DNA of 64,000 nucleotides from positions 38,483,229 through 38,547,228 of the forward strand of contig CM049314.1 in the NCBI GenBank assembly GCA_026874595.1, in the 5' to 3' direction. Positions 5,069 to 63,189 of this stretch are shown piece by piece. Both the position numbers and the translations under genes were made by a program. Numbering within the stretch: the first letter of the stretch is position 1; every line of letters begins with the position of its first letter. The notes under the pieces were generated by a model. It was not told the DNA's origin. It saw only the letters and a list, made by a program, of their open reading frames with translations, and did not search any database. This stretch comes from Sipunculus nudus (Eukaryota > Annelida > Sipuncula > Golfingiida > Sipunculidae).

Positions 5069-5180
5069 GTTCATTTCGCAGGGATATGTCACTCTGACGT
5101 TCATGTGATCTACGGAGGAATTCAAACCGAGCAAGATCAGGCCCAGATGAGATCACTGCTCAAACCGCCGCTTGTCCCAG
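5069..5180 (+). CDS. ADH-like gene, coding exon 2
   Basis: The acceptor is ttctacag and the donor cccag/gtactc; the exon begins in phase 0 and ends in phase 1. It encodes VHFAGICHSDVHV, with the cysteine and the H-S-D-x-H segment of the catalytic zinc site, and ends with PPLVP, which joins to GHE in the next exon. Its last 30 or so bases and its donor are the first unit of a tandem repeat filling the start of the intron. Confidence 0.9.
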
Positions 5181-6577
5181 GTACTCACACACAGAGACAA
5201 ACGGACACATGTAGACATACATACATAAAGCTGAGATCACTGCTTAAACTACAACTTGTTCGAGGCACTCACACCTACAGACAAACGGACACACATAGAT
5301 ATACATACATACAGCTCAAATCACTGTTCATACCATCGCTTGTCCCAGGTACTCAAACCTACAGACAAACGAACACACATAGACTTACATAAATACAGCT
5401 CAAATTACTGTTCAAACCGCCGCTTGTGCTAGATACTCACACCTACAGACAAACGGTCACACGTAGACATACATTCATACAGCTGAGATTACTGCTCAAA
5501 CCACCGCTTACCAAAACTACACACACCAACAGACGAAAGGACACACATAGACATACAACTACCGCTTGTCCGAGGTACTCACACACACAGAGGCACACAG
5601 GCGTACACATAGTCAAAGAGACGTACACAGATATACATACAGCTGAAATTACTGCTCCAACGACAACTTGTATAGCAAGTGTATGAACGAGTCATGCAGT
5701 TTTACTTTCAATTTTTAGTATCTCTTGCCTGTGAAACAAAAATACAATTGGATCGTTGATCAAATTATCAGTTTCCTGATTATATACAAGTTACCGGGGA
5801 AAAAAGAAATGAATAAGTACTCTTTGATTTACTCTGCGATCCAAAACAGAAACCTACAAACGTTATAAGACTGAATTGAATTCAAGAGCAGGCAGGGACT
5901 CTTTTTTGTATCGGTTTGCTGTCATAATACTAAACGAAAAAATATCATCCGATAATTTTGATAAGATATAGGCTCTTGCCACTTGTGAAAAAAATAAATA
6001 TCGCTAATGACTGCGATGCCTAAGTGTAAGGAACACTCCTTGAATAAGAAAGTTGAGTTGATAAGGAACTCAGCATGCATGACGTAATAAGTATAAACTC
6101 GTTGGAGATTGTAGGATCGGTGAGAACCCGGTATACCTGCAGTCGTGTTTAATATAACGTGTTATATACTGATGATTAAATCAAATATAATTGCAACTTC
6201 TGTAACTATTATTCATTGGCTGAAAAAAAAACAGTTAATTTAATACATACAAACTACAGACCCACAAGTGTCTCACAGATCCTGCGGTGTACAGCGAATG
6301 TATATGTTGGTTATGCTGAATTTCAAAAATGAAACAAACTGTACCATGATAATTTCCTCTCTAACCATCTACAGAGGTAGATGAAATATGGTTATGTGTA
6401 ATGATATCGAATGAAGCCGCAGCACAGTGCTTTCAATTATAGTAATTAATGACCAGACGGGATTTTAATTTGTACACCCAAGCTGGTCAAACCTCACTTG
6501 AACGATCACACAAAACTGCCACCACTTACCAGTGCCCGTTGTTTGTCGTAATTTCGAGGTAACACAGTGTATATAAT

Positions 6578-6631
<54 letters not shown>

Positions 6632-9600
6632 TGGTTTGTGTCTATTTATTCCGGTATTGAAAAGTTGGTTCGCATACTACAAATATTTCTTTTAAGATCG
6701 GGTGCATGTTATTGTAGAATTGTTACTCTCCACTCATTTTATGTGAACACGTGAACCCATATCTATATTCCAATGTATTTTTGTGTGAGTTTGATTATTT
6801 GATTAAATACGCGCATAATAAGTTAATGATAATAAAAAATGCATAGAAGGATTTGTAAGTGGTTGATGTTTATATGAATACACATTGCAGGTCACGAGAT
6901 TTCCGGTGAGATATACAGTCTTGGGACAAAATCGAATGCTGGTAGGTGTAACTTTTTAATGTAAGTGTCTGGGTCGGGGGGGGGGGATAACCGAAGCCAT
7001 TTTCAAATACCAGCCAATCATAGTATTTGTGAGAAAAAATAGGATAATACTTAGCAGAAATTAAAACTCTCTAAGAGACGCAGAGAGTATGGGGTTGTTC
7101 AACATCCTTGAGAATGTTTCCAAACTGTTTTCGTCCGAATAGACAGAATCGACAATAATTTGATCTTTTTTTTATTTTCATAATCAGTATTCTTTTATCA
7201 AACAGCAGGACCATTGTTTATCTTGCTTATAAGGACCACAACGCTGCATGTTAATGTTCCAAGTACCTTCTTGCCGTTATCAATTTTATAAACTTATATA
7301 ATCATAGATTTATCTTACGAGATAACTGTTTGATATAACTGTCAATGACTTCATATGTGTCTTTTTTTACTCTTTTCGTGAGCTTAATCGATAACCTACT
7401 TAATCTTTTTACTTATTATCTGCCAAAATCTAGTCACTTTTAAGCATTTTATTTGTTGCCGTAGCTGAAAGAAATATCATTTCTACTGCCTAATTGATGA
7501 GTGTATAAATGTGTGCCTATTTATCTATCGACCTCCACTTTGAAAACACTCATGAATTCCGTCTGTCTTAGTATTTCATTACTCTTTCAACTGTCTTCAT
7601 TGAGGAAATGTCAGAATGGTAATCAAAATCGGGTAATCAAAATGTAAATACCAGCCAAACAATAAGAGTTAACCGTGCTGCAGAGTTGAACAAGTTGGTC
7701 CCTGGGGTGGGTGATGAATAACTGTCAGCTGAGCACAATTTGAGCGGAGACCAAGTTAACTATGGCCTCGTTCCGGAGGTGCACTGGTTCAAATTTGAGT
7801 GGAACTGGGGTTCCTTCTAATTTTGATGAAATACATTACCAGGAACGATTAATCCACGAAGGGTTAAACCCTACGAATAGTGTTTAAGGTCAAAACCATG
7901 AAATTTTAATCCCACGTTATTTTCTGAATCCTCAGTACATGGCTTTTAGCGGAGTTAAATAAAATAAGACCCTTTTATGGGTACTAGTATGTTAAATACT
8001 CACAACAAGTCGAGAATGATTTTTTAAATCGGATTTGAACAATAGGATGCCTACGATGAATTTGTTTCTTATTCCAGCACTTAAGAGATATAAGGTCGGA
8101 GACCGGGTGCTGGTGTACCCCTTGGTGGGTTGCGGACAGTGCGGGTTCTGTAAAGCCGGAGAGAACCGTTTTTGTTTGCCTTTGTTCCGTTTCAGTCATG
8201 GGATTGGCTGGGAAGGAGGGTGAGTTAATTGCTTTGTTAGACAATTAATGAACATATGTATTTGCTCAGTTATCATAGTTAAACAACAGGAAATAATTAA
8301 GTCAGTCATAAAGCATGTGTCAGCTTCAAAACTATTAACTACATGAATGCAATCGGCAAACAATGACTGGAACACACAAAAGGTCTTAATTACCACGTCC
8401 TTCAACGGTGTCTCACAGTTCACCCACGGCAAAGCGTGGCCGTGTCGAGAATGAACGTGATGAAATTGAAGACAGCCTCCTCGTGACATTCGTGACACGT
8501 TCTTGGCACGGTATTTCACTTCATGTACGGTACTACGTCATTGCGGCGGTAATAAAATCACATTCCCCTAGAAGAACGTGGGTATGCCCCGCTCATCCTA
8601 GTGCTCGCCACGTTCTTCTACGGCCGTGTCACGGCATTGTCACGGTAACCACGTCTAGTCAGGTTTTCCTACGGTATCCTACGGCAAAAGACAACGTGTT
8701 AGGGTGACAAGAGGATTTACCGAGGACCAGCCCCCAGTTTTTAACACGCCAAATTAGTTCTGTCCAGGTAGATCGAGGTGAACATTAATGTGTCAGGGAT
8801 CATGCTCTGTCCCGCTCGTTTTAAACATTTAAAAGATAACGTCGATCCCGTACGACTATGGCATCCCGCTAGGGTGTCTTACGATAAAGGTCACGTCCTA
8901 CCACGATTTTCAAATACGTGGTGAACCGTAGACAGAACGTGGTAAGTGAGACTTATGCTTAAAGCAAAGTGAGAGAAATATGTCTTTACATTCGTGTGGG
9001 GCCGAACATATTTATACCTAACGTAGACAAGCAGGCTCATATGCGAAACTCTTGTATTATTTTTTGCCCCAAAAAATCACTAAACTGATGGATCTCTGCC
9101 CTTTGAACAAATATACTTTAATGCGTCTTATTGTGCCTTTAGCTTTCAGCAGTACATGAAGGTAAATAGTCTGAATTACCTCATCCCTGTCCCCGCCGGA
9201 ATGCCAATGGACATAGCCGCAATGATCTCTTGCGGTGGTATCACTGCATACACCGCACTAATGAAGGCAAAGCCAGCTGTGGAAAAGTTCAGCAAATGCA
9301 TGGGTACGCTTTTTGGCTGAATACTTTATTTGTGGCAAAAATGTTTAGCAGATTAGTACCTTTATCTCTCGAGAAATTTCAGGGAAAAGCAATGTGTTTT
9401 AATCGTTTGATTTTATTTCCAAAATTATACATCCCAAGTGCCCTCTACTCTTCATTTAGATAGCTCTTATCTGTCTCCTGGCCTACCCAGTGAAATTTAA
9501 TAAACCTTGATATAGATTTTCCAAGAATTATTATAGAAAATTCAATTTTTCAAATTCCCCTATTCAAAATTACTCTGGCGGGTACGTTACAATATCGGAT

Positions 9601-11783
9601 ATTATAGAAATCTAACTATTTTTACTTTCCGCTTCACCAAAAATAGTTCACATCCTCCTCCTCCTTATCATCATTATCATCATCATAATTAACATCGTAA
9701 CCATCGTCATCTTCTTCATCATCTTTTCTTCCACCACCATCATTAGCCCTATTTTCCTGAACATCACCATCATAGTTCATCATTTATATTAACAGACATA
9801 TAATATGGTTACCATTCATTCTGGTTAATTAAGCATCTCTGGCGAAAAGCCTCAATTTTATAGCATTCAAAAGTTTTTTCCTATTAGCCCTAAAATTTCA
9901 TATAATTTAAAACCGGGTTCAGAGTTCTTTCTATTGCATATGTATTTATTAAAAACTCCCATTTTTGAAATTTTAAAATTTTAAAGGTGCACGACTTCAG
10001 TTAGAGTTAACAATCAGAGCAATCGCCGTGAAGTTGGATAATATCAAACTAAATGAAAATAACTCAAAACCAATTTTCCCCTTATTTCTTTTAGCTTAAA
10101 TCTTAATTCAAAACTTGATTCGTTAAAAGATTTAAATTTCATTTTAAACTGCGAAAAAACCTTGTCGAAGAAAAACAGTAAGGAGTTTAGAGATATTGTT
10201 ATGCAGGTTTGATATCAGCCATCCGAAAGTAATTAACTGTTAGTAGCTGCCAAAATTCGTATACTTTTAAGAGGTTTAAATTTTCTAAATTATCAAAATT
10301 CGAATGTGAAAATGAACTTGAATTTCATAATTATACCATCTAAAAGAGCACTACACTTGGTATAACATTACGTACACATTATTGGTTTAATATTAATTTT
10401 ATTAATAGGGTTGGTTTTGGTTGAAACGGGTTTTTACTTGGGATGCCTAGGGAATAGTGTTTTGCTGACTTAAACTGTGACTGTGTCTCCAGTTCAAAAG
10501 ACGATTTCTTTTTTTAATAATTGATCACCTCAAGAAAAGTACTAGTATAATAAGCAATCTTTACTTTTGATACTTGCTTATCTTTGTCAATAAACATGCT
10601 ATATATCATCATCTTGCATCATTGATATCTTTCGAGTATTTGAATCATTCAGATGATGTATTTTTGTCATTAGTTGCTAAAAAAGTATTTAAAAAAGTCA
10701 TAGGCCGTTATCTTTGTTATTTATCACTTATCTAGGATATTCGAATCAAATATATAGCTTTCATTTTGATTTGCATTCCTAGGCTTAAGCAAGGAAATGA
10801 TAAACCTTTTGATCATGTATCTGAAAAAAGACTATGTTCGGATAAACGACGCGCTACTGTATTGGTTTCTACTACGCAGAAGAGGTGGCGCTGCTGATTG
10901 TTGGAGCTGGCGGAGTCGGATTATGGGGCATCCAGATCGCAAAGGCCGTCATGCCTAAAAACACCAAGATATATGTAGCCGAGATTGCGGTTGGTTTATT
11001 CCCTGTTATTTTGTTAATTTAGCTGTAAGATAGCATTTCATGTATTCGCTATCCATTTGGACGTTTATTTTTTTAATATTGATATATTTTGTCATTATGT
11101 TGCCGGAGAAGCTGTAATTATCACGGGCTGATTGGTAAAACTACAAAAGGTTCATACATCTTGTAAAACAGACATATTAAAACCTGAATAGTCTACATGT
11201 AAAAATTCCGTTTACTGTCACATGAATAGCAGCAACTAAGAAAATGTCCTTTACCTATACAATAGTATAAAAATGTTTAGTATCAATTTAAAACTACAAA
11301 TTAACCAAATAACACTGAAAATATGACATTTTCTGGACTAAGTCATTTTTTGTAGATAATGGACTTCTTTTTCATACTGCATCACTGCCCATTAGGGCAC
11401 AATAAGCGAGTAGTAAATTGGGAATAAAGGTGAACCTTGGGAAATGTTGGACTAGGGCATTGAGCACAGTCGTTCTAGGTCTATTATTTCGTTCACAGGA
11501 ATCAAAGTTCCAGCCTGCTCTAGATTCTGGAGCCGATCAGTGTATCCTCTGGGACTTGAAGGGTAAGGTGTTCATCTTTTCCCGATTAAAGCACTGAGAG
11601 AGAGAGACTTGTGTACAAACTAAAAGAGAGACACACAGAGAGACAGACATACAGTGACAGAAAGACATACAGTAATATAAACGTGTGCATGAGACGGAGA
11701 GAGACAGAGAGAGACAGAGAGAAACAGAGAGAAGGAGAGAGGTTTTGCAAACAAAAATAAACTCAGTGAGGGTTTGTACACAA

Positions 11784-11987: not shown

Positions 11988-13940
11988 CTTACACAGAAAA
12001 TCAGAGAGGATCTTGAATAGGGCTGAGAGAGAGACAGTCAGACAGTATGATAGACAGAGATGTACAGAGACAGAGCATCAGAAGAAAGAATGGAGTTATA
12101 AAGTAGAGGACAAACTTAACATATAAGACCGATTATTCATAATTGATTGAATCAAGTTTAAATATTTTTTTTGATTATTTACTCGAATTTCTGTCTGTAT
12201 ATCATTTCATTTTGGTCTTGTCTGACTAACTATGAGGTTTCTAATATTTTTATATTGAGAATCTATTATTCATTCAGGAATTTGTTTACAGCTACCACAG
12301 AGGAAAAGACAGCCTTGACTAAAGCTGCCATCCCGGGGGGCGTCTTCGTAATAGTTGACTTCGTGGGGAGCGATGCCACTGTGCCGACAACTTCCGGCTC
12401 TATCGGAAAGGCGAGTATATATATCGAGTCGCGAAAGAAAGAAGAAAGTTTATTCAGGAAAGAGGCCACAGGCCCAAAATTCCTGAGATACAATAATATT
12501 CATAAGTCTTCAATAATAAGTGAAATAAAAAGATCACAACTGTAAACACTTCAGTTAAAGTGCAAATTAACACTGAGTCTTAAAGTACAACGACAATTTA
12601 AAAGAATAAAGAAATGAATAAAACAGATGCTTCAATTAAACATAGAAGTCTGTTGCAGGTTGCATACCTACAGCCACTTTGCATGAATCATAAATAACCA
12701 TTCATTTATAATCACATTCATTTCTATTAGTTTATGTGGACTTAAACATAATCCATAGTAAATTACAGCACAACAATATCCTTATGTCATTTAGAATATG
12801 AGTTTAATAACGACAGTATATATTAATCGTAAGTGAAAATACTGGAAAGAAATAAAATATAGTAAAAATAAGATAAATGAAAAACTTAATTAAATAAAAT
12901 GGAAAACATCTAATCATAATTGATTATGCACAAAACGTAAGTCTTTATTCGATAAGGAAAGCAAAAAAATATTGTATCTGTAAATGTTGTTTATTTTTAT
13001 GAAAGAATGAAAAACATATGCTGCTTATCTAGTCGTGTATACAAAACGCAGTAGAGTGATCAGCTTTATTCTTGACCGATGACAAATCTTACTCGGGTGC
13101 TTACTGCATGCAGAATTACATGCTATTGCCTCAATACCGCGGAAAACAGCCGGCAATATTAAGATTATTCTGCAAGTGATCGGTCCTCACGTAAGAATAC
13201 CTGTGTGCACACAAACAAAAGAGTAACTCGCTATGTTAACAGGGCAATTGCTGTATCGCCTACAAGTTGGCTATAATCTAGTAACCCGTGCGAGATAAGG
13301 TCGTGTTCATGCGGCCAGGAATTCTTCAAACAAGCACTGGGATTTACAAATATGCTGAGTAAAAGCGAATATTCCCCGCATATGGTAGTAGTTGTTAGAA
13401 AGTATAAAAATATATATGATGTTCCTTAAACCGCAGAACTTCATACAAGATTTTAAGGCACACTGACGATTGAAAATCTCTCAAGGAAAATCCCGAACGT
13501 CAAAGGGCCGAAATAGAGCTGGTTAATGTTAGGAAATTATTCTCCTTAAATCTTGGTGGTATATTTTAAATTTTGATTAAATCCCAGAACCAGCATAGTC
13601 CTAAAAGCAGTGACTTTGAAACAGGAATGCCGTGGGGTCATAACCTTTGTGCTTTCAGAGTATCATTTTGTAACTTCGTAGATAGGCTTGGTTTCAACCA
13701 AATTATGTTTCTGAACTGTCTCTGACTACAATCCTGCCAACAGACCATGCGCCTAATAAAAATATATGCTGTAATATTTTGTTAGCCACGATTTCTAATT
13801 TATTGCCTAATGCCCCTGACATACATTAAAAAAGAATCAGTGGCGTACCCATGATTTGAAGATAGAAGGGCGCAGCTGCAGATACGGGGCCGAGGACCTT
13901 TACCTGTATTCTGCTATTCGGTAGCATATATATATATATG

Positions 13941-14179: not shown

Positions 14180-17100
14180 TTCCAGCTGTGCTAAATCCTG
14201 CCATAAAACATTCTGATGAAGCTGAGAATAAAGTACAGTGTACTGTAGATCAAGTAACAAATTAACCTGGAATAAACACGACATAGTCGCACTAAATTAT
14301 AATAAATCTCTTATTATAATAAATGCCAAAAGGATTGCTTATCAGTATCTCCAAATATCAATATATGGTTCAAAATCACCTTTTCCCGATAAGACTTATT
14401 TACTTGGGGTGATAATAGATGCTAATGTTTCTTGGAGACCAAATGTTAACTCAAAAAAAAAATTAGGTTAGATTTTACCGAATGACAAGCTTTCCTTTTC
14501 TGAATTCAATGACCAAGGTTAATGCCACAATCATTTAACCACATATTGACTCTGCCCTAAGCACCTGGGGCATCTAAACATCTGTACTTAAGTGCCTACT
14601 ACCAGTATGGTACAAAAGAAACTAATCAGAGCTACCCGAAAAAAAAAATTATATAAATGTAAAATCCACGATGATAGTAAGTGAACTTAAATGGATAAAC
14701 GTACATCAGCGCTATACATATTGCATTGAAGTGTAAATGTATAAATGTGTTTGCTTAAGGGTTCCTGGTTTCCAAGGGAAAGCATTTATTTTGTTCATGA
14801 GGCTCACAATCATGGGACTCGAGCTGCTGTGAGTTACAATTTAGTCGTCGCTAAACCTGACAATAAATAGTTAAATAATTCTTCACTTTTTGCTGAGCTA
14901 AAGTCTTGAATAGGTTATCCAGTAACATATATATCAGCCACATTATGTGCTTCTTTAAAAAAAACGAATTAATCTAGAAATAGAAGGGAACTCTTCAGTT
15001 ACATGACATGGTGTACAGTTCCATATCTTTGCATTGGTGTGTGTAGCACTCTTTTCACTTAGCATTCATTGATCATATAAGAATAACCTTAACTCCATTC
15101 TGCTTTGTTTAATCAGAATATTGCTATGGCCAAGGATACCAATATAACGTAATATTGCTTCGTACCTAGCATTATAGATATATACTGACTGTGATATTTT
15201 AGTACTCTGTTGATATTAGTATAAATATGATATAAATGTGATAAAATATGCTATAAATGTGCTTGCATTTTTCGAGATCAAATAATTACAAAGTTCATAT
15301 CTTATACTCCCTTCCATGGAATTATGAATGTGTTGTATGGATAACTTATTAAATACATCTAGTTACTTTGTAAATGGTGCAGGTTACCAAAGTGTAGACG
15401 AGTTTTATTTTAGCTCATTGGTTTAATACCCTGCATAAATAATAAATAAATAAAATAAGATAAAAAAAATGTGTGCGTATCCTTAAATAAAGGAAAATGA
15501 AATAAATGTGAGTTTACATTCATAGCACTTGCAAATAGTTCCCCCCCCCATACATACGCCCCTGGAAACATTGTACAGGAAAACATGATAAAATGTTTAT
15601 TTATATCACTATGTTGCTTCATTTCTGCTTCATCTGTGAACTAAGTGATACGTTCCATTTACTTCTCTCCAATAGGTGCTACAATAATTAACAATAAAAT
15701 GTAACATATCCGATATACTTTCATCCTAATAAACTTACACTTCTAAAATGTGTTCGTACAAGCTATGTGATACTTTGTGCTTTATGAGGAGTTTACTTGT
15801 AGGGCGGCACAATCGTGTCGGTTGGCCTCTTTAAGGGGACGTATACATTCAACTCGGCCAACTTCGCCCTAAACATGTTAAACCTGCAAGGATCGTTGAC
15901 TGGTGCGATATCTGACGTAGCCGGCGTGGTCAAGCTGGTGGCTGCTGGAAAGGTATGTGTGATCTCCACCAGAGGCCTCTTCGGTCTCATTTCCGGAGCG
16001 GGATCTGTCGAGCACGCGTTGCAGTAATTACGTCCAATAAGGACGAAATGTTTCCATAAATGTCTGTATGTTTGATTATTAATTGATTTAATATCAAAAG
16101 ATTACGCAAAAAAAAAATCTCTGGTCTAGGAATAGAGTTTGTTTGCAAAGAGTTTGAATCTCATCCGAAGCGATGATTATATTACGTGATATTTTTCCCG
16201 ATCGGTCCCTCCCAAAATGACGAATTTGTATGCTTAATGTGAATGCCGTGTACCACGGCTATCTTTTACTTACCTATGACTGGCCTTTGGGGGATTTCTC
16301 GGTGGCATGACCCAGCATTGGGTAAGATATAACAGTCAGGGCCGCTACAGTATAAGTCCCCTTGGTTAACACCAGGATATATTAAATGAATGAAAGCATG
16401 TGCTAATGGTCTGTCATGTAGTCAGAAACGAGAATAGAATTCTGCAGATGTGCATACTTAGTTAGATTAATAGTAAAATTATGAAATTATACCTCCAACA
16501 AAAATATTAAAATACAAAGATAAAAGGAGATGACAAAAAAATAAAAAAAATAAATAAATAAATAAAATTGGATGATTAATACAAAACCTTTTTGACGGAT
16601 GGAAAACGGGTTACCCAATATTGTAGATTAAGTGGGATAGATTTATGAGTATTATTTTACGTTGGCGGAGGCTGCATTTAGAGCAATAATAAAAAAAAAT
16701 GGGTTTCCCTTCCAATTTAGCTGTTTCGGGGTTATATACCCAAACTATTCCCAAATTGTCTACTCATTTCCAATTTTTTCCCAGTAAAAGATACTTTATA
16801 AAATGCTTGAATCGTCCTATTTTTACCATGGGAATTTAAAAAAATTACTTTAAGAATATCAAACTAGGTGGAGCGATCACTGGAAACCTCACCCCGAGGC
16901 CCGCAAATGAACGATAATACAGAACAGCTTTAGTGTGTACAACCCTGGGAATAAGGTCAAGGTCGAAAATTAATATATGGCCCATATCTCTGACCTAGGA
17001 CAATAATGTCATCCCTTCGCCAGTGATCGATTCAAATAAAAACAAACCTCTTCAAGTTAGGGAGTGTTGGACGGCAGGCCTGCTGTCCTAAACTCTTAAA

Positions 17101-17926
17101 TTTAAAAGTCTAAACTTGTTACACTTCATGGAAACCCATTCATTTTACATTTCACATGCGCGTTCACAAAATAGTACTAAGGCCGTAAAGGCCTTGCAAA
17201 AAATACCAATATTTATGTTATTTACTTTGAACCACTTTTATCTGTTTTTGCATTGCGTTACCCACTTCACGACATTTTTTACCTGCTAGTGTATTAAGAA
17301 CCGAGGGTGCAGTTTGGGGTTTAAAGTTCAAGAGCAAAAAATAATAACCAACAGAGTCGTACTCGTGTGAGTCCGATTCTACGAAGTGTGTTAAAATGTG
17401 CCAAAATCTCAGCTTTATAAAAGCAGCAATTTCGGAGTTTTAGAAAATGACAGTGGAAAAGAAAAATGTAAAACTCGGGGATAAAAATCGGAGAGACCTT
17501 TAGAAGTAGGTCCATCAAAAAAATAATTTTACCCAAAAATGAATTTGGACATAAATTCATCAGCTCCTATAAAGGCTAGCTTGTCCGTCCTAAGTGGGGA
17601 GGTTTAAGTATGATTATTAAAAAGCAAGGTGATGTGTGGGTCTGAAGATATAATTTATTATGTTTTGTGCGTTTGTTTGTATAATTGCATGGTTAACGTA
17701 TAATGTAACCTAACCAGGATAAAAAAAACAAGGTATAAGTGAATCAGTAATGTTTAAGTGAATAAGTAATATACTTTTGAAATCTCCAGTAACAAATCAG
17801 CTTATATCTGTCTTTAAGATAACTGGACCACCGATAGCCCACGTGACCTTGGAGGATACAAACAAGATCATCGAAGAACTGAAGAGAGGGACATGGCGGG
17901 GACGCGCGTTGGTGCGTTACGTGTGA
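5069..17926 (+). CDS. Zn-dependent alcohol dehydrogenase-like gene, coding exons 2-10 (5' partial)
   Basis: Nine exons join in phase: 5069-5180, 6891-6941, 8078-8219, 9143-9303, 10880-10989, 11499-11562, 12292-12410, 15803-15952 and 17819-17926 (TGA). They encode 338 residues. The exon at 63085-63189, start of a related gene, has 35 codons and ends in phase 0, so the full protein would be about 373 residues, normal for medium-chain dehydrogenases. Visible marks are the GICHSDVHV segment and GHE (catalytic zinc site), four cysteines spaced CGQCGFCKAGENRFC (structural zinc), MISCGGITAY (third catalytic ligand) and GAGGVG (dinucleotide-binding turn). Family knowledge says such enzymes oxidise alcohols or reduce aldehydes or ketones with NAD(P); the substrate cannot be read here. 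The frame is open throughout, so the gene looks functional. Oddities: one GC-AG intron and a minisatellite repeating the exon-2 donor. The first coding exon is not in the 5 kb upstream. Confidence 0.9.
5149..5690 (+). repeat. 84-bp minisatellite that includes an exon-intron junction
   Basis: Units start in the last codons of dehydrogenase exon 2 (from GAGATCACTGCTCAAACCGC) and run through the donor and an ACAC-rich tail. Junction points fall at 5180, 5264, 5348 and 5432, exactly 84 bp apart. Two or three more degenerate units reach about 5690. The junction reads cccag/gtactc in unit 1, cgag/gcactc in unit 2, cccag/gtactc in unit 3 and ctag/atactc in unit 4; a late unit near 5570 again has cgag/gtactc. 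Confidence 0.9.
6570..6629. repeat. (TA)n(GT)n compound microsatellite
   Basis: TA run joined to about 28 bases of GT; in ADH intron 2. Confidence 0.95.
6891..6941 (+). CDS. ADH-like gene, coding exon 3
   Basis: The exon lies between cacattgcag and gtaggt, phase 1 to phase 1. It encodes GHEISGEIYSLGTKSNA, the conserved GHE motif carrying a catalytic-zinc histidine and glutamate. Confidence 0.88.
8078..8219 (+). CDS. ADH-like gene, coding exon 4 (structural zinc lobe)
   Basis: The acceptor is cttattccag and the donor gtgagt, phase 1 to phase 2. The exon encodes KVGDRVLVYPLVGCGQC followed by GFCKAGENRFC; the four cysteines match the structural zinc lobe of the family. Confidence 0.9.
8390..8945. 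mobile_element. MITE-like foldback element in ADH intron 4
   Basis: The ends are TTACCACGT (8390-8398) and its exact complement ACGTGGTAA (8937-8945), with weaker pairing inward to the ACGG motif. Inside is a perfect 13-bp inverted pair, TAGAAGAACGTGG at 8569-8581 and CCACGTTCTTCTA at 8608-8620, using the same CCACGT core. The element is richer in CG than the flanks and has no long coding frame. A non-autonomous DNA transposon fits; the superfamily is not known and target duplications are unclear. Confidence 0.5.
9143..9303 (+). CDS. ADH-like gene, coding exon 5
   Basis: The acceptor is gcctttag and the donor gtacgc, phase 2 to phase 1. The exon encodes the turn from the catalytic to the cofactor-binding domain. 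IPVPAGMPMDIAAMISCGG includes the cysteine expected as the last catalytic zinc ligand, and ITAYTAL follows it. Confidence 0.88.
10880..10989 (+). CDS. ADH-like gene, coding exon 6 (nucleotide-binding fold)
   Basis: The acceptor is ctacgcag and the donor gttggt, phase 1 to phase 0. The exon encodes LLIVGAGGVGLWGIQIAKAV and then IYVAEIA. GAGGVG is the glycine-rich turn of the Rossmann fold. The acidic residue after the second strand is Glu, which by family rule hints at NAD rather than NADP; that is inference. Confidence 0.9.
11499..11562 (+). CDS. ADH-like gene, coding exon 7
   Basis: The exon lies between gttcacag and gtaagg, phase 0 to phase 1. It encodes ESKFQPALDSGADQCILWD, matching the alanine-x-x-x-GAD segment that follows the cofactor-binding turn in this family. 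Confidence 0.85.
11594..12080. repeat. GA-rich minisatellite in ADH intron 7
   Basis: Pure (GA)n runs at about 11788-11827 and 11956-11987 alternate with a module of about 55 bp containing AAAATGTC and GTCTTGTAyATAGGCT. The module occurs four or five times in diverging form (for example near 11610, 11745, 11835, 11895 and 11990). The array separates exons 7 and 8. Confidence 0.7.
12292..12410 (+). CDS. ADH-like gene, coding exon 8, GC splice donor
   Basis: The acceptor is tttgtttacag. The exon encodes ATTEEKTALTKAAIPGGVF and then VIVDFVGSDATV, ending SIGK. Phase and family alignment need the exon to end at AAG before gcgagt: a GC donor, joined to GGTIVSVGL in the next exon. No GT donor nearby keeps the frame. 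Confidence 0.82.
13925..13983. repeat. (TA)n microsatellite
   Basis: TA run interrupted by TATGTATG; in ADH intron 8. Confidence 0.95.
14126..14176. repeat. (TA)n microsatellite
   Basis: About 45 pure TA bases, just upstream of the LINE fragment. Confidence 0.95.
14235..14945 (+). pseudogene. Fragment of a CR1/L2-type LINE reverse transcriptase 3' end
   Basis: Read over several frames, the plus strand gives LLGVIIDANVSWRPNV, then a weak LP..N..L.P segment, WINVHQRYTY, and near 14810 HNHGTRAA with a following YNLVVAKPD. These match the thumb and C-terminal tail of CR1/L2/jockey-like retrotransposon ORF2. Many stops and frame changes show it is dead. It lies in ADH intron 8, in the same direction as the gene. 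Confidence 0.6.
15803..15952 (+). CDS. ADH-like gene, coding exon 9
   Basis: The acceptor is gtttacttgtag and the donor gtatgt; the exon is 50 codons in phase 0. It encodes GGTIVSVGLFKG and LNLQGSLTGAISDVAGVVKL, the standard late part of the cofactor-binding domain and the start of the C-terminal catalytic part. Confidence 0.9.
16119..16462 (+). mobile_element. tRNA-derived SINE, copy 3, in ADH intron 9
   Basis: The head has GGTCTAGGAATAGAGT and AGTTTGAATCTC, the body GGCCTTTGGGGGATTTCTC and TGACCCAGCATTGGG, and the tail CTGTCATGTAGTCAGAAAC and GAATTCTGCAGATGTGCAT. Confidence 0.65.
17819..17926 (+). CDS. ADH-like gene, terminal coding exon 10
   Basis: The acceptor is tgtctttaag. The exon encodes ITGPPIAHVTLEDTNKIIEE, then a basic stretch and RALVRYV before TGA. 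A C-terminus of GRALVR type is usual for the family. Confidence 0.9.
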   Translation: MTGPPIAHVTLEDTNKIIEELKRGTWRGRALVRYV

Positions 17927-37690: not shown

Positions 37691-37919
37691 TGTGCATGGA
37701 CGTCACCCGGACATCGGAGGATGGCGCCACGAAGTGGTGTGGTCGCCCCCGTTTCCACGCGTATGGATCCACCCCGCTATCAGTGACTACTGACGCGCTT
37801 TGAGAAACATAAACACTATTTTGGAACCATTCAGTACTGGTTTTGCAGTTCTGACGGCGCTATCGTTTCTCTCAAGCAAAACCACAAACTTCTGCGGTTT
37901 CCACCCATTGTTGAAAGCC

Positions 37920-37926
37920 TATAAAA
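37920..37926 (+). promoter_or_regulatory. TATA box in the 5' LTR
   Basis: TATAAAA in a GC-balanced context (AAGCCTATAAAACGAACTCG), kept in both LTRs; likely core promoter of the element. Confidence 0.55.
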
Positions 37927-38000
37927 CGAACTCGCCTGCAGTACGAGGCGGGACTATCGATTTTGCTACGCCACGTTGCTGTTTTCCCCGGGGACCGTGA

Positions 38001-38029
38001 CCGTGGGCTCTTGGTCCCCAAGCCCACGG
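38001..38029 (+). other. LTR hairpin
   Basis: CCGTGGG and CTTGG pair with CCAAG and CCCACGG around a TCC loop, with a CT bulge on one side. Present in both LTRs. A role in RNA packaging or polyadenylation is possible, not shown. Confidence 0.55.
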
Positions 38030-38425
38030 AATGCCATGAACCACGCCATGAACTTTATTATTTAGGAAGAGGAGAGACTTTATGTTTTTTTGGTGCCACA
38101 TGGATTAATACAGGACTTCAGTTTTGTGTGTGCCCGAACTATGTGTTGATGATGGACTTCAGTTTCTCGTATACCGGATTGAGTTAAGTATTTCGTTGCA
38201 GTTCGTTATTTAGAGACTCAATTTTTCTTCAGAGTCTTGGTTATAAATTACGTTATGTATTGACTATTATATTATTTGTGTACGATTGTAAATATTGTAA
38301 TATAGGAATATAGCACTGTTTTTGCTCCCATATTTTGGTTACGTATTCATTTGAAGAGAACGTGTCTGAGCATATGTGTTACGGTTCGGCCTGAGTTGTT
38401 TGGTGTGAAAAGGGACCGTAACATA

Positions 38426-40504
38426 ATGGCGACCGCGACGAGATTTCACCAAACTCTCAAAAACATGATTAGAGCTTATTGTCTTGACACTAGGAACCAG
38501 TGGGATGAGGGTTTACCCTTTTTGATATTTGCAGCCCGAGAAGCAGTGCAAGAAAGCTTAGGGTTTAGCCCTTTTGAATTAGTGTATGGGCACTGTGTAA
38601 GAGGCCCCCTGGCGGTGTTAAAAGACACTTGGATGGAAAACAGTTGTCAAAGTAGCTTGTTAAAATATGTTCAGGAATTCAAGGAGAAATTAAGTAGGGC
38701 AAATGAAATCGCCCAAGAACATTTAAAGAAAGCCCAAAACAAAATGAAAGTATGGAATGACAAAAAGACGACAAAAAGAGAATTTAAACCTGGTGATAAA
38801 GTTCTGGTATTATTCCCAATTCCAGTACATCCCCTGCAAGCAAAATACTCTGGACCATACAAAATTGTTGAGAAGAAATCAGATTTGAATTATGTAATTG
38901 ATACTCCTGATCGTAGAAAGTCGCAACAACTTTGTCATATAAATATGTTGAAAGAATATCATGACAGATCAGCGGAAACATGTCAATCTAGTCCTCCCCA
39001 AACAAATTTGGTACTCATTAAAGAAACTGAAAAGAATGCCGAGGATGTTCTCATGAAGAAAACTGAACATCCTGTAAAACTGAACAACTCTGATATTTTA
39101 AATAATTTAGATCAGAAATTGTCACATTTGGATTTCGATCAGTTATCAGAGTTGAAGGAAATCCTGCTAAATTATGACTCTTTATTTCCTGATGTCCCCA
39201 GTAGAACTAATGTACTACAGCATGATGTAGACGTAGGAGATGCTTCCCCTATTAAACAGGCACCATATAGAGCTGGTCCCCAAAAGTTACAAGCCATAAA
39301 GAATGAAATCAAGTATATGATAGAGAATGATATTATTGAAAACAGCAGTAGTGCCTGGAGTTCCCCATGTTTGTTGATAAAGAAGCCTGATATGACCTAC
39401 AGATTTTGTACAGACTATCGAAAAGTTAACACTGTAACAATAACAGATACTTACCCTTTGCCCAGAGTGGAAGATTGCATTGATAGGATTGGATCTGCTA
39501 CGTATATTAGCAAGTTAGATCTGTTAAAAGGTTATTGGCAGGTACCTCTTACCGAACGGGCTAAGCAAATATCTGCGTTTGTAACGCCAAACGGTTTGTT
39601 CCAGTACAAAGTTATGCCCTTCGGAATGAAAAATGCGCCAGCCTGCTTCATGAGACTTATGAATTGTGTATTATCTGGCTTTGATAACTGTACTTGCTAT
39701 ATTGATGATGTTGTTGTATACAATCACATATGGGAAGATCATAAACAAAGTTTGGTAGAACTCTTTGAGAGACTGAAAAAAGCAGGATTGACAGTTAATC
39801 TTGCCAAGAGTGATTTTTGTCGTGCAAATGTAACATATTTAGGGCACGAAGTAGGTCAAGGTTGTGTAAAACCAATTGCCAGTAAAGTATCTGCTATCGT
39901 AGAATTTCCAGTTCCTACTAATTGCAAGGAACTAATGCGATTCTTAGGAATGATTGGGTATTACAGGAAATTTTGTCAGAACTTTGCAGAAGTTGTAAAT
40001 CCGTTAACGGACCTATTGAGAAAGGACAGAAAATTCCATTGGAATAAAAACTGTCAAAATGCTTTTGAAAGAGCCAAAGCTATATTACAAAGTGCACCTG
40101 TGTTACAGGCTCCAAATTTTGATAAACCGTTTTCTCTCATGACGGATGCCAGCGACTGCGGTGTAGGCGCTGTGCTCATCCAAGACGATGACTTTAACAT
40201 AACTCATCCGGTTTGCTACTATTCAAAGAAATTTTTACCTCATCAAAAGAATTATTCTACTATTGAAAAGGAAACTCTGTCACTATTGATGGCGTTACAG
40301 TACTTTGAAGTATATTTGGGCTCTACGCCTTATGATATAACTGTTTATACAGATCATAATCCCATAACATTTCTTCAGAAGATGAAGAATAATAATCAGA
40401 GATTAATGAGATGGAGTCTAGCCCTGTCAGAGTTTAACCTAGTTATCAAACACATCAAGGGCTCCGATAACATAATCGCTGATACGTTATCAAGACGTCA
40501 TTAA
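38426..40504 (+). CDS. pol: Truncated pol: integrase C-terminal part, RT, RNase H
   Basis: The first ATG, at 38426, gives 692 residues; the same frame is open upstream into the LTR. Residues 6-70 match the end of the integrase core (RFHQTLKNMIRAYC, then GFSPFELVYG), starting just after the place of the third catalytic acidic residue, so integrase activity is lost. A GPY/F-type module lies near 143-180 (SGPYKIVEKK, then HINMLKEYH). Reverse transcriptase covers about 275-455 with SKLDLLKGYW, MPFGMKNAP and the catalytic YIDD at 425-428. RNase H covers about 570-690 with the four acidic residues at D574, E616, D643 and D686. RT and RNase H look intact. There is no gag or protease; the ORF may be translated or be a passenger of a mobilised defective copy. 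Confidence 0.9.
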   Translation: MATATRFHQTLKNMIRAYCLDTRNQWDEGLPFLIFAAREAVQESLGFSPFELVYGHCVRGPLAVLKDTWMENSCQSSLLKYVQEFKEKLSRANEIAQEHLKKAQNKMKVWNDKKTTKREFKPGDKVLVLFPIPVHPLQAKYSGPYKIVEKKSDLNYVIDTPDRRKSQQLCHINMLKEYHDRSAETCQSSPPQTNLVLIKETEKNAEDVLMKKTEHPVKLNNSDILNNLDQKLSHLDFDQLSELKEILLNYDSLFPDVPSRTNVLQHDVDVGDASPIKQAPYRAGPQKLQAIKNEIKYMIENDIIENSSSAWSSPCLLIKKPDMTYRFCTDYRKVNTVTITDTYPLPRVEDCIDRIGSATYISKLDLLKGYWQVPLTERAKQISAFVTPNGLFQYKVMPFGMKNAPACFMRLMNCVLSGFDNCTCYIDDVVVYNHIWEDHKQSLVELFERLKKAGLTVNLAKSDFCRANVTYLGHEVGQGCVKPIASKVSAIVEFPVPTNCKELMRFLGMIGYYRKFCQNFAEVVNPLTDLLRKDRKFHWNKNCQNAFERAKAILQSAPVLQAPNFDKPFSLMTDASDCGVGAVLIQDDDFNITHPVCYYSKKFLPHQKNYSTIEKETLSLLMALQYFEVYLGSTPYDITVYTDHNPITFLQKMKNNNQRLMRWSLALSEFNLVIKHIKGSDNIIADTLSRRH
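38427..38444 (+). promoter_or_regulatory. Candidate primer-binding site
   Basis: TGGCGACCGCGAC begins 3 bases after the end of the 5' LTR; TGG pairs with the CCA end of a tRNA. The tRNA species is not assigned. The site overlaps the first ATG of the ORF. Confidence 0.5.
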
Positions 40505-40727
40505 TTTTGACCTGATGATTGACTCTTGTTGTAGCCTCGAATATGTTCTGTCCTTTGGAAGAGTTGTATTACATATATTACATGTATTAAGATATTGATG
40601 ATTATACTATTTGTGATGATGATAATTAATTAGCTTTGCGAAGCATAAACTAATGCTTAAGATGTCAAACTACTCATACACTCGTCATACAGTGCTAATG
40701 CTTTGCTCTCCTTACCTTCTTTCTTTT

Positions 40728-40738
40728 AAGGGTGGGGG
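40728..40738 (+). promoter_or_regulatory. Polypurine tract
   Basis: AAGGGTGGGGG ends right at the 3' LTR and is the expected primer for plus-strand DNA. One T interrupts it. Confidence 0.7.
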
Positions 40739-41470
40739 TGTTGCATGGACGTCACCCGGACATCGGAGGATGGCGCCACGAAGTGGTGTGGTCGCCCCCG
40801 TTTCCACGCGTATGGATCCACCCCGCTATTAGTGACTACTGACGCGCTTTGAGAAACATAAACACTATTCTGGGACCATTCAGTACTGGTTTTGCAGTTC
40901 TGACGGCGCTATCGTTTCTCTCAAGCAAAACCACAAACTTCTGCGGTTTCCACCCATTGTTGAAAGCCTATAAAACGAACTCGCCTGCAGTACGAGGCGG
41001 GACTATCGATTTTGCTACGCCACGTTGCTGTTTTCCCGGGGGACCGTGACCGTGGGCTCTTGGTCCCCAAGCCCACGGAATGCCATGAACCACGCCATGA
41101 ACTTTATTATTTAGGAAGAGGAGAGACATTATGTTTTTTGGTGCCACATGGATTAATACAGGACTTCAGTTTTGTGTGTGCCCGAACTATGTGTTGATGA
41201 TGGACTTCAGTTTCTCGTATACCGGATTCAGTTAAGTATTTCGTTGCAGTTCGTTTTTAGAGACTCAATTTTTCTTCAGAGACTTGGTTATAAATTACGT
41301 TATGTATTGACTATTATATTATTTGTGTACGATTGTAAATATTGTAATATAGGAATATAGCACTGTTTTTGCTCCCATATTTTGGTTACGTATTCATTTG
41401 AAGAGAACGTGTCTGAGCATATGTGTTACGGTTCGGCCTGAGTTGTTTGGTGTGAAAAGGGACCGTAACA
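40739..41470 (+). repeat. 3' LTR
   Basis: 732 bp, starting TGTTGCATGG right after a purine tract and ending CCGTAACA, followed by ATTGT. The TATA box copy is at 40969-40975. Confidence 0.92.
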
Positions 41471-52289: not shown

Positions 52290-53465
52290 CATATCTGGAG
52301 CAGAATTGCAACAGATAGCCAGAGCAGTGTTTCCAGCAGACCTGCAGCATTTATTAAGTATGTTAACAGTATATGCTGTATATGTCCTCAAGACCTATGG
52401 ATTGTATTCTGAAAGTCTGCTCCGTAACTGACCATGTATAATCCTGTATTGCGCAGTAGATTTGGAGCAATGATGCAGCACAAAATGAGCGGTTCCAATA
52501 TTATAATTTAGTACTCCAATGGAGTAGGCCTATTTGCATGTTAGAAGCAGGTGTTCAGCAGTTCTTCTGCAGAACCTGAGCAGTATGCTCTCCTGGAGCA
52601 GACCTGAGTGCTCCCCTTGAGCAGTGCTGGGTGCTGTTCCAAAGCAGTGCTCTCCTGGAGCTGACCAGTATACTCTTCTGCAGGGTGCGTTCAGGAGAAG
52701 ACCTGTGTGCCCACCTGGACCAGACCTATGTGCTCTCCTGGAGCAGACCTGTGTGCTCCCTTGGAGCAGTGCTGAGTGCTCTTCAAGACCAGTGATCTCC
52801 TGGAGCAGACCTGTGTGCTCTTCTGCAGCGGTGCTCTTTTGGAGCAGACCTGTGTGCTCTCCTGGAGCAGAATCTGTGCTCTCCTGTAGCAGTGCTCTTC
52901 TCCAGCAGTGCTGTATGCTCTCTTAAAGGCCATCTTTGTGCTCCTTGGAGCAGACAGGTGTGCAGTCCTGGAGCAGTCCCCAATTTTCTTTTAAGTTTTT
53001 ATATAGTGACCATGCATCAGCATTCTCTTTCACACCAATGTCAGAAAGATTGAAATAGTCTATAATCCTGCATTACGCAGCAGATATTGAGCAGTCATGC
53101 AGCACAAAACGAGCGGTTTCAATTATTTAAATCAGTGCTCCAACGGAGCAGGCCTATTTGCTTGATAAATGCATGTTTTCACAGTTCATGAGCAGACCCA
53201 TAGCAGTATGATCCACTGGAGCAGACCTGAACTGTCTGCTCTTCCAAAGCAGTGGTCTCTTGGAGCAGACCAGTATGCTCTTCTGCAGCAGGGCTCTCCT
53301 TGAGCAGACCTGTGTGCTCTCCTGGAGCAAACCTATGTGCTATCCTGCAGCAGTGCTCTCCTGCGGCAGTGCTCTCTTCGATCAGACCGGTGTGCTCTCC
53401 TAGAGCTGACCTGTGTGTTCCCCTGGAGCAGTGTTGTGTGCTCTTCAAGAGCAGTGGTTATCTAT
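52290..53465 (+). repeat. Minisatellite of GGAGCAGACCTGTGTGCTCTCCT-type units
   Basis: From about 52550 to 52975 and again from 53190 to 53460, units of about 24 bp (and shorter variants) repeat the core GGAGCAG.CC.GTGTGCTC. A higher-order copy is visible: TATAATCCTGTATTGCGCAG near 52438 and TATAATCCTGCATTACGCAG near 53060 both lead into the array through GCAGCACAAAA.GAGCGGTT and GGAG.AGGCCTATTTGC. Frames on both strands stay open because unit length is near a multiple of three; they are not taken as genes. Confidence 0.85.
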
Positions 53466-63084: not shown

Positions 63085-63189
63085 ATGGCGACGAAGAACA
63101 AAAGGATGGAGATGCTGGAGTTCAATAAACCATTAGAGTTGAAAGTGGCTCCAGTCCCTGAAGCGCCACCTGAAGGAGCAATCATCAAG
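63085..63189 (+). CDS. First coding exon of a second ADH-like gene (3' partial)
   Basis: The acceptor tttctttctcctcag at 63077 is followed by CATCAAC and ATGGCGACG. The exon is open for 35 codons (MATKNKRMEMLEFNKPLELK and so on, ending GAIIK) and stops at the donor gtaatg in phase 0. The start MxxxEFNKPLELK..PVPEAPPEGxxIK is the usual N-terminal strand pair of zinc alcohol dehydrogenases and would join to a V-x-x-AGICHSD exon like that at 5069. The acceptor in front of the ATG means an upstream non-coding exon exists. The other exons lie beyond the window. Very likely a tandem paralogue of the gene at 5-18 kb. Confidence 0.85.

Follow-up and report, generated by a model that had tools for sequence, protein, structure and literature searches.

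Two neighbouring alcohol dehydrogenase (ADH) genes of Sipunculus nudus carry an 84-bp minisatellite across the splice donor of their second intron. One of them, named C here, belongs to the window, i.e. the analysed stretch of 64,000 nucleotides of contig CM049314.1 (assembly GCA_026874595.1, positions 38,483,229 to 38,547,228). Its paralog D is the next ADH copy downstream. The explanation that we find probable is that of an old minisatellite over the donor, which is decaying in C, where splicing would take place mainly at position 5180, and which has regrown in D, with in-frame isoforms as a possible outcome.

The window gene is, to judge from its sequence, an intact-looking zinc ADH. The domains of the zinc-dependent (MDR) enzymes are present (Pfam ADH_N, E 3.7e-25; ADH_zinc_N, E 4e-18). 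With a provisional 181-residue query, the best PDB match was the NAD-dependent ADH of Sulfolobus, 2eer (E 1.6e-21), and the end of exon 2 aligned with the stretch preceding GHEI in Sulfolobus NAD-dependent ADHs. Exon 1 of C is located about 15 kb before the window. The exons were joined on the basis of homology and splice signals rather than of RNA. Exons 1-9 are open over 338 residues and a plausible last exon adds 35 residues, leaving a coding sequence that appears complete. Intron 8 starts with a GC donor, aag/GCGAGT (12410-12416), in both C and D; unlike the GC donor of array unit 2, this one retains most of the remaining consensus. The positions of the exons and array units are given in Table 1.

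Table 1. Exons and array units of the window ADH gene (C) and of its paralog D. A slash marks the exon-intron junction.
Feature	Position	Strand	Remarks
ADH exon 2	5069..5180	+	VHFAGICHSDVHVIYGGIQTEQDQAQMRSLLKPPLVP-G; ends in phase 1, in the G of GHE; unit 1 takes its exon part from the last 37 nt
Array unit 1	5144..5227	+	exon 5144-5180, intron 5181-5227; donor cag/GTACTC, probable ancestral position
Array unit 2	5228..5311	+	donor gag/GCACTC at 5264/5265; 4/9 matches to CAGGTAAGT
Array unit 3	5312..5395	+	donor cag/GTACTC at 5348/5349, followed by in-frame TAA 5390-5392
Array unit 4	5396..5479	+	tag/ATACTC at donor position, without GT
Array unit 5, truncated	5480..5557	+	aaa/CTACAC at donor position, without GT
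Degenerate unit fragments, 3' edge of array	5557..5671	+	one with cgag/GTACTC at 5574/5575, past the stop
ADH exon 3	6891..6941	+	GHEISGEIYSLGTKSNA; after acceptor attgcag; join would give ...LVP-GHE
ADH exon 4	8078..8219	+	
ADH exon 5	9143..9303	+	
ADH exon 6	10880..10989	+	
ADH exon 7	11499..11562	+	
ADH exon 8	12292..12410	+	followed by the GC donor aag/GCGAGT
ADH exon 9	15803..15952	+	
ADH last exon	17819..17926	+	ITGPPIAHVTLEDTNKIIEELKRGTWRGRALVRYV, then stop; the acceptor is inferred and the coordinates come from a hand count
Paralog D exon 1	63085..63189	+	next ADH copy downstream
Paralog D exon 2 and nine-unit array	L005:6856-7700		beyond the window
Paralog D array	L005:6931-7700 = C9:38552930-38553699		nine units; first unit donor at C9:38552966

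The original prediction held that the last codons of exon 2 and their donor form the first unit of a minisatellite, and the array proved real. TRF returned a period of 84 with 4.9 copies, 80% matches, 0% indels and a score of 499 at 5144-5557, and shorter degenerate pieces extend the array to about 5671. The first unit, from 5144, combines the 37-nt end of exon 2 with 47 nt of intron. Reading of the sequence confirmed the junctions at 5180, 5264, 5348 and 5432, spaced by exactly 84 bp (28 codons). The donor of unit 3 equals that of unit 1 (cag/GTACTC, identical over 9 nt) and unit 2 has a GC version (gag/GCACTC). In units 1 to 5 the donor positions read GT (5181), GC, GT (5349), AT and CT, hence GT in 2/5. 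Past exon 2 the ADH frame stays open, from 5069 to 5389, before the stop TAA at 5390-5392, and the arithmetic is right that use of the unit-3 donor would lengthen the protein in frame by 56 residues. Two points of the prediction have to be amended. The 56 extra residues are rich in TH/QT, but they contain no E, and the ETQ motif belongs to another frame. Their placement directly before GHE is formally correct, but in effect they would enlarge the loop upstream, each unit re-supplying an LLKPPLVP-like end.

In structure, these repeats resemble a minisatellite at a 5' splice site: the units run head-to-tail, their length of 84 bp lies within 10-100 bp, and there are 4.9 copies in C and 9.2 in D. 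Each unit comprises an exon end, a donor and an intron start, the exon end being defined by homology (12/12 exons) and not by RNA. One repeat period in three would be divisible by three by chance; the existence of the array as such greatly exceeds what chance could produce. A chance repeat was ruled out by the TRF result together with a genome-wide count, in which a 20-mer of the exon end with at most 2 mismatches occurred 11 times in the 1.43-Gb genome, twice in the C array and nine times in D, with 0 for the control. This pattern passes over more diverged copies and in C misses units 2, 3 and 5. A DNA search in which very common words were skipped gave two candidate places, C and D, and no third array place in the genome. 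A dispersed repeat or transposon was likewise ruled out, since searches of limited sensitivity located the unit at only two places in the genome. Elsewhere in the window, the strongest matches fall in the simple-sequence tracts around 6.6 and 36 kb and fit the intron-like half of the unit; the other matches are short and weak. Over 42 nt, CA-rich array sequence at 5270-5311 shows 79% complementarity to the (TA)n/(TG)n tract at 6586-6627, further downstream in this intron. A hairpin between the two could mask array donors.

Tandem arrays can be misassembled, and the repeat could in principle have been wrongly assembled or expanded. We hold this to be hardly credible: the units differ from one another at many positions, the array is situated inside one 79.8-Mb contig, and a diverged copy is found at the same boundary in paralog D.

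The exon boundary itself seems to be old. Of the 22 matches yielded by a search of the S. nudus genome, 13 were exon-2 homologs other than C and D; the remainder consisted of C and D, the two exon-3 pieces of these genes, and five weak matches, all on C17. We read 12 of the 13 homologs, ten of them by place (L028-L037) and genes A and B in the flanks; C11:17606918 and the weak C17 matches were left aside. By eye, the position of the exon end, in phase 1, is shared by 12/12 homologs, and a G precedes the GT in 11 of them. The exception, L029, has CAA/GT and may be decayed. In the 12 homologs (500 bases per locus for the ten, 1400 for A and B), TRF reported no 84-bp array; four had short or dinucleotide repeats and nothing else, while both the C and the D array were detected as controls. 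The same exon end in all 12 homologs, with no array after it, points to 5180 as probably the ancestral donor. On these data the array is special to the two genes C and D. The exon-2 matches with E below 1e-4 number ten, and eight of these lie within 0.42 Mb on C9. There is a large ADH cluster at C9:38136561-38552971, with C11, C14 and C16 represented as well.

In D, the array is placed at the same exon-2 boundary and comprises 9.2 copies with 93% matches (TRF). The donor position is GT in 8/9 units and TT in unit 2. Eight units are 84 bp long and one is 85 bp, the additional base following directly on the donor of unit 7; the exon-like ends of D units 1-7 are therefore in the ADH frame. From exon 2, this frame is stop-free for 342 codons, even past the 1-nt insertion, and exons 1-9 are open in D as well. 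For work on RNA, the D array would be more rewarding than gene C.

Over exons 1-9, C and D differ with a dS of 0.295 and a dN of 0.062. Both arrays terminate in a similar unit fragment and the intron that follows can be aligned (853/1118 columns), which argues that the array is older than the duplication that gave rise to C and D. Compared with one another, units 1-4 of C agree at 79-83%, a divergence fairly close to the age of the duplication, and the units of D at 87-99%. Set against a dS of 0.295, these values suggest that D turned over after the split and C hardly at all. The C array would then be old and static, and the D array would have expanded or turned over later than the split. With about 5 units in C and 9 in D, the length of the array has changed between the tandem paralogs; this copy-number difference is one between paralogs of a single assembly. 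We propose that a tandem duplication across the exon-2/intron-2 boundary created the 84-bp minisatellite in the common ancestor of C and D. In C, turnover of the array would have stopped and the array would have decayed as intron, with splicing mainly at 5180. The donor of unit 3, at 5348, would serve at most as a minor alternative, lengthening the protein in frame by 56 residues. In D, the array would have regrown to nine units with 8/9 donors kept, making a ladder of in-frame isoforms possible.

Any GT donor of D units 1 and 3-7 leaves the residues LVP before the junction, followed by GHE from exon 3; in C, this applies to units 1 and 3. As each unit re-supplies the exon end, the choice of donor would shift the length of the loop by multiples of 28 residues and leave the residues next to GHE unchanged, provided that the units are of 84 bp. 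Which donor is used is difficult to predict from its strength, a discriminator that we discarded: units 1 and 3 share all 9 nt, with 6/9 matches each to CAGGTAAGT, and the nine donors of the gene itself score 5-7. Because the unit-3 donor is identical over these 9 nt to the ancestral donor, the sequence gives no ground to exclude unit 3. When donors compete, SRSF1 is reported to favour the intron-proximal one and hnRNP A1 the intron-distal one (PMC5585400). With such opposite preferences, position alone does not predict the use of unit 1.

The unit-3 donor could be used in a real share of C transcripts, giving a functional ADH with a loop longer by 56 residues before GHE. The identical donor 9-mer and the frame open to 5389 agree with such use, as do the junction, which would still read SLFIPSLVP-GHE, and the alignment of this region with the stretch before GHEI of the Sulfolobus ADHs. 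We nevertheless judge it quite unlikely. The exon-like copies in C units 2-4 have freely accumulated nonsynonymous changes, and no Pfam family (0) was matched by exon 2 with its extension (window positions 5069-5389). Given the MDR fold, moreover, 56 residues inserted next to a zinc-ligand motif would probably impair the enzyme. Pfam searches with the repeat peptides gave nothing above the cut-off; a match to methane monooxygenase, at 17.6 bits versus a cut-off of 25, was taken as chance. The open frame was also rejected as coding evidence. It is weak evidence because unit 1 is stop-free in the ADH frame and the later units are its descendants, and in D the frame is open even beyond a 1-nt insertion.

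The changes among the units of C are those expected of an intron. Among units 1-4, 15/37 sites vary in the exon-like part and 14/47 in the intron-like part, and 11 of the 17 exon-like changes are nonsynonymous, without excess at third positions. Purifying selection on the units as codons was not detected in units 1-4. The internal units of C appear to drift freely and to decay like intron, with no sign of coding selection.

The D units have a different pattern. Their exon-like parts show four changes, all synonymous, versus 17 in the intron-like parts, 13 of which would be nonsynonymous if read in the ADH frame. Per site, this corresponds to 4/11 for synonymous, 0/26 for nonsynonymous and 17/47 for intron-like changes. 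Fisher tests of nonsynonymous versus intron-like sites gave 2e-4 for units 1-9 and 9e-4 for units 2-9, values that come from tests chosen post hoc and from small counts. Site permutation of exon-like versus intron-like diversity gave 0.004 and 0.016. The ratio of exon-like to intron-like changes also differs between D and C (Fisher 0.012 with C units 1-4, 0.027 with C units 2-5). Lower support was obtained with changes private to one internal unit (Fisher 0.05) and with changes per site after removal of unit 1 (Fisher 0.06 for units 2-9, 0.10 for units 2-7). Since the synonymous rate in D equals the intron-like rate, homogenisation or a low mutation rate alone would be insufficient to produce this pattern.

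A sceptical alternative for D is that new units are born from a constrained unit 1. We simulated neutral turnover with unit 1 constrained, by random unequal exchange or with units copied from unit 1. Zero nonsynonymous changes were obtained in 6/2076 accepted runs under random exchange and in 11/4177 runs with units born from unit 1, i.e. about 0.003; a first, smaller simulation had given 0/316 and 2/635. The model with units born from unit 1 produced a mean of 13.3 private intron-like changes versus 6 in D, and therefore fits D poorly. Among its 88 runs with at most 8 private intron-like changes, zero nonsynonymous changes occurred in 0/88. The signs of constraint on the internal units of D would be unexpected if only unit 1 were ever used, which argues against exclusive use of this unit.

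This could mean that the donors of D units 1 and 3-7 are used, giving isoforms with 0, 56, 84, 112, 140 or 168 additional residues, and that selection keeps LRSLLKPPLVP before GHE. We regard this as a tentative possibility, somewhat on the unlikely side. The absence of nonsynonymous changes, at a synonymous rate matching the intron-like one, and the Fisher, permutation and simulation values speak for it, and C, where no such pattern exists, serves as a control for mutation bias. However, there are only four exon-like changes, the tests were picked after the pattern had been seen, and the tests on private changes and without unit 1 are the less convincing ones. Units 8 and 9, out of frame following the 1-nt insertion in unit 7, are equally clean of nonsynonymous change. 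The donor hexamers are more variable than the exon-like part, and unit 2 lacks GT. That the internal units of D are read as protein is a serious hint, not proof. A more elaborate proposal, which we consider unlikely, would make of D a modular length-variable exon kept by selection, assembled in 28-residue steps from cassettes of LRSLLKPPLVP plus donor, possibly with a dual-use AG/GT. Donor choice, or the gain or loss of entire units, would then alter the loop before GHE in frame while its adjoining residues stayed the same. C would be its decayed sister, with unit 3 as the last live in-frame alternative.

The unit end, ccag/gt, could itself act as acceptor and donor (AG/GT), so that the array would be removed in steps of 84 nt or recursively, invisibly in the mRNA. 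AG/GT is indeed kept in C units 1 and 3 and in 8/9 units of D, and pyrimidines occupy 9-12 of the 15 positions before the site, compared with 7-14/15 at the inferred acceptors of exons 2-9. New introns have been reported to arise through duplication of AGGT (PMC4974935), and juxtaposed AG/GT defines recursive splice sites (PMC8906543). Dual use nevertheless seems very doubtful to us. The sequence is compatible with it, but 84 nt is short for an intron. AG/GT was already the natural exon end, and its presence therefore needs no function. We also considered that each unit might be a micro-exon of its own, entered at the AG with which the unit begins, and rejected this as a 34-nt piece (hand count) would shift the frame.

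Repeats of this kind are already known. The closest precedent is a 31-bp VNTR of human CBS, c.1444_1467+7(16_21), which has 16 to 21 copies and is polymorphic in people (PMC2630376). There too, in a gene for a metabolic enzyme, a tandem unit lies across an exon-intron boundary. As the notation implies 24 exonic and 7 intronic nucleotides, each unit would repeat the donor region. Its 31 bp are not a multiple of three, whereas the ADH unit of 84 bp stays in frame, with about 5 and 9 copies. Human CBS 844ins68 (PMC2630376) resembles our case in being a duplicated intron-exon junction that is tolerated as splicing picks one copy, but it is not an array. Two fission yeast genes contain 24-bp AGGT repeats in which, as here, multiple in-frame tandem duplication supplied splicing signals (PMC4974935). 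In fission yeast a new intron arose from an exonic segment, while in the ADH array the donor of an existing intron is repeated. Recursive splice sites, or ratchet points, have juxtaposed AG/GT as in the ADH array (PMC8906543). Unlike them, the AG/GT of the array is an ordinary exon end that was copied. We found no such array described in an ADH gene in the literature consulted, including the available parts of PMC11899878 and PMC12783039. Two features of the present case are less common: the array occurs in two sister genes, fresh in one and decayed in the other, and its donor-spanning unit is divisible by three.

In a single S. nudus genome, two sister genes naturally carry splice donors that are repeated in frame. 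If the internal donors are used, the length of a minisatellite would directly set the length of a protein via splicing, with the gene pair as a built-in control. If they are unused, the case shows that a gene can take on many copies of a splice donor with no obvious damage. In either case, gene predictors may misplace the ends of exon 2 here.

Two further stretches of the window contain repeats or mobile-element sequence. A retroelement-like stretch at 37794-41360 includes an ORF of 732 residues (38306-40504) in which, by eye, an integrase-like part precedes a reverse-transcriptase-like part, and near-identical translations occur in it near 37.8 and 40.8 kb. This order of domains presumably recalls Gmr1-type elements. 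A diverged minisatellite at 52586-53454 is composed of two blocks with TRF periods of 16, 22-23, 39 and longer, and is rich in GGAGCAGACC/TGCTCTCCT.
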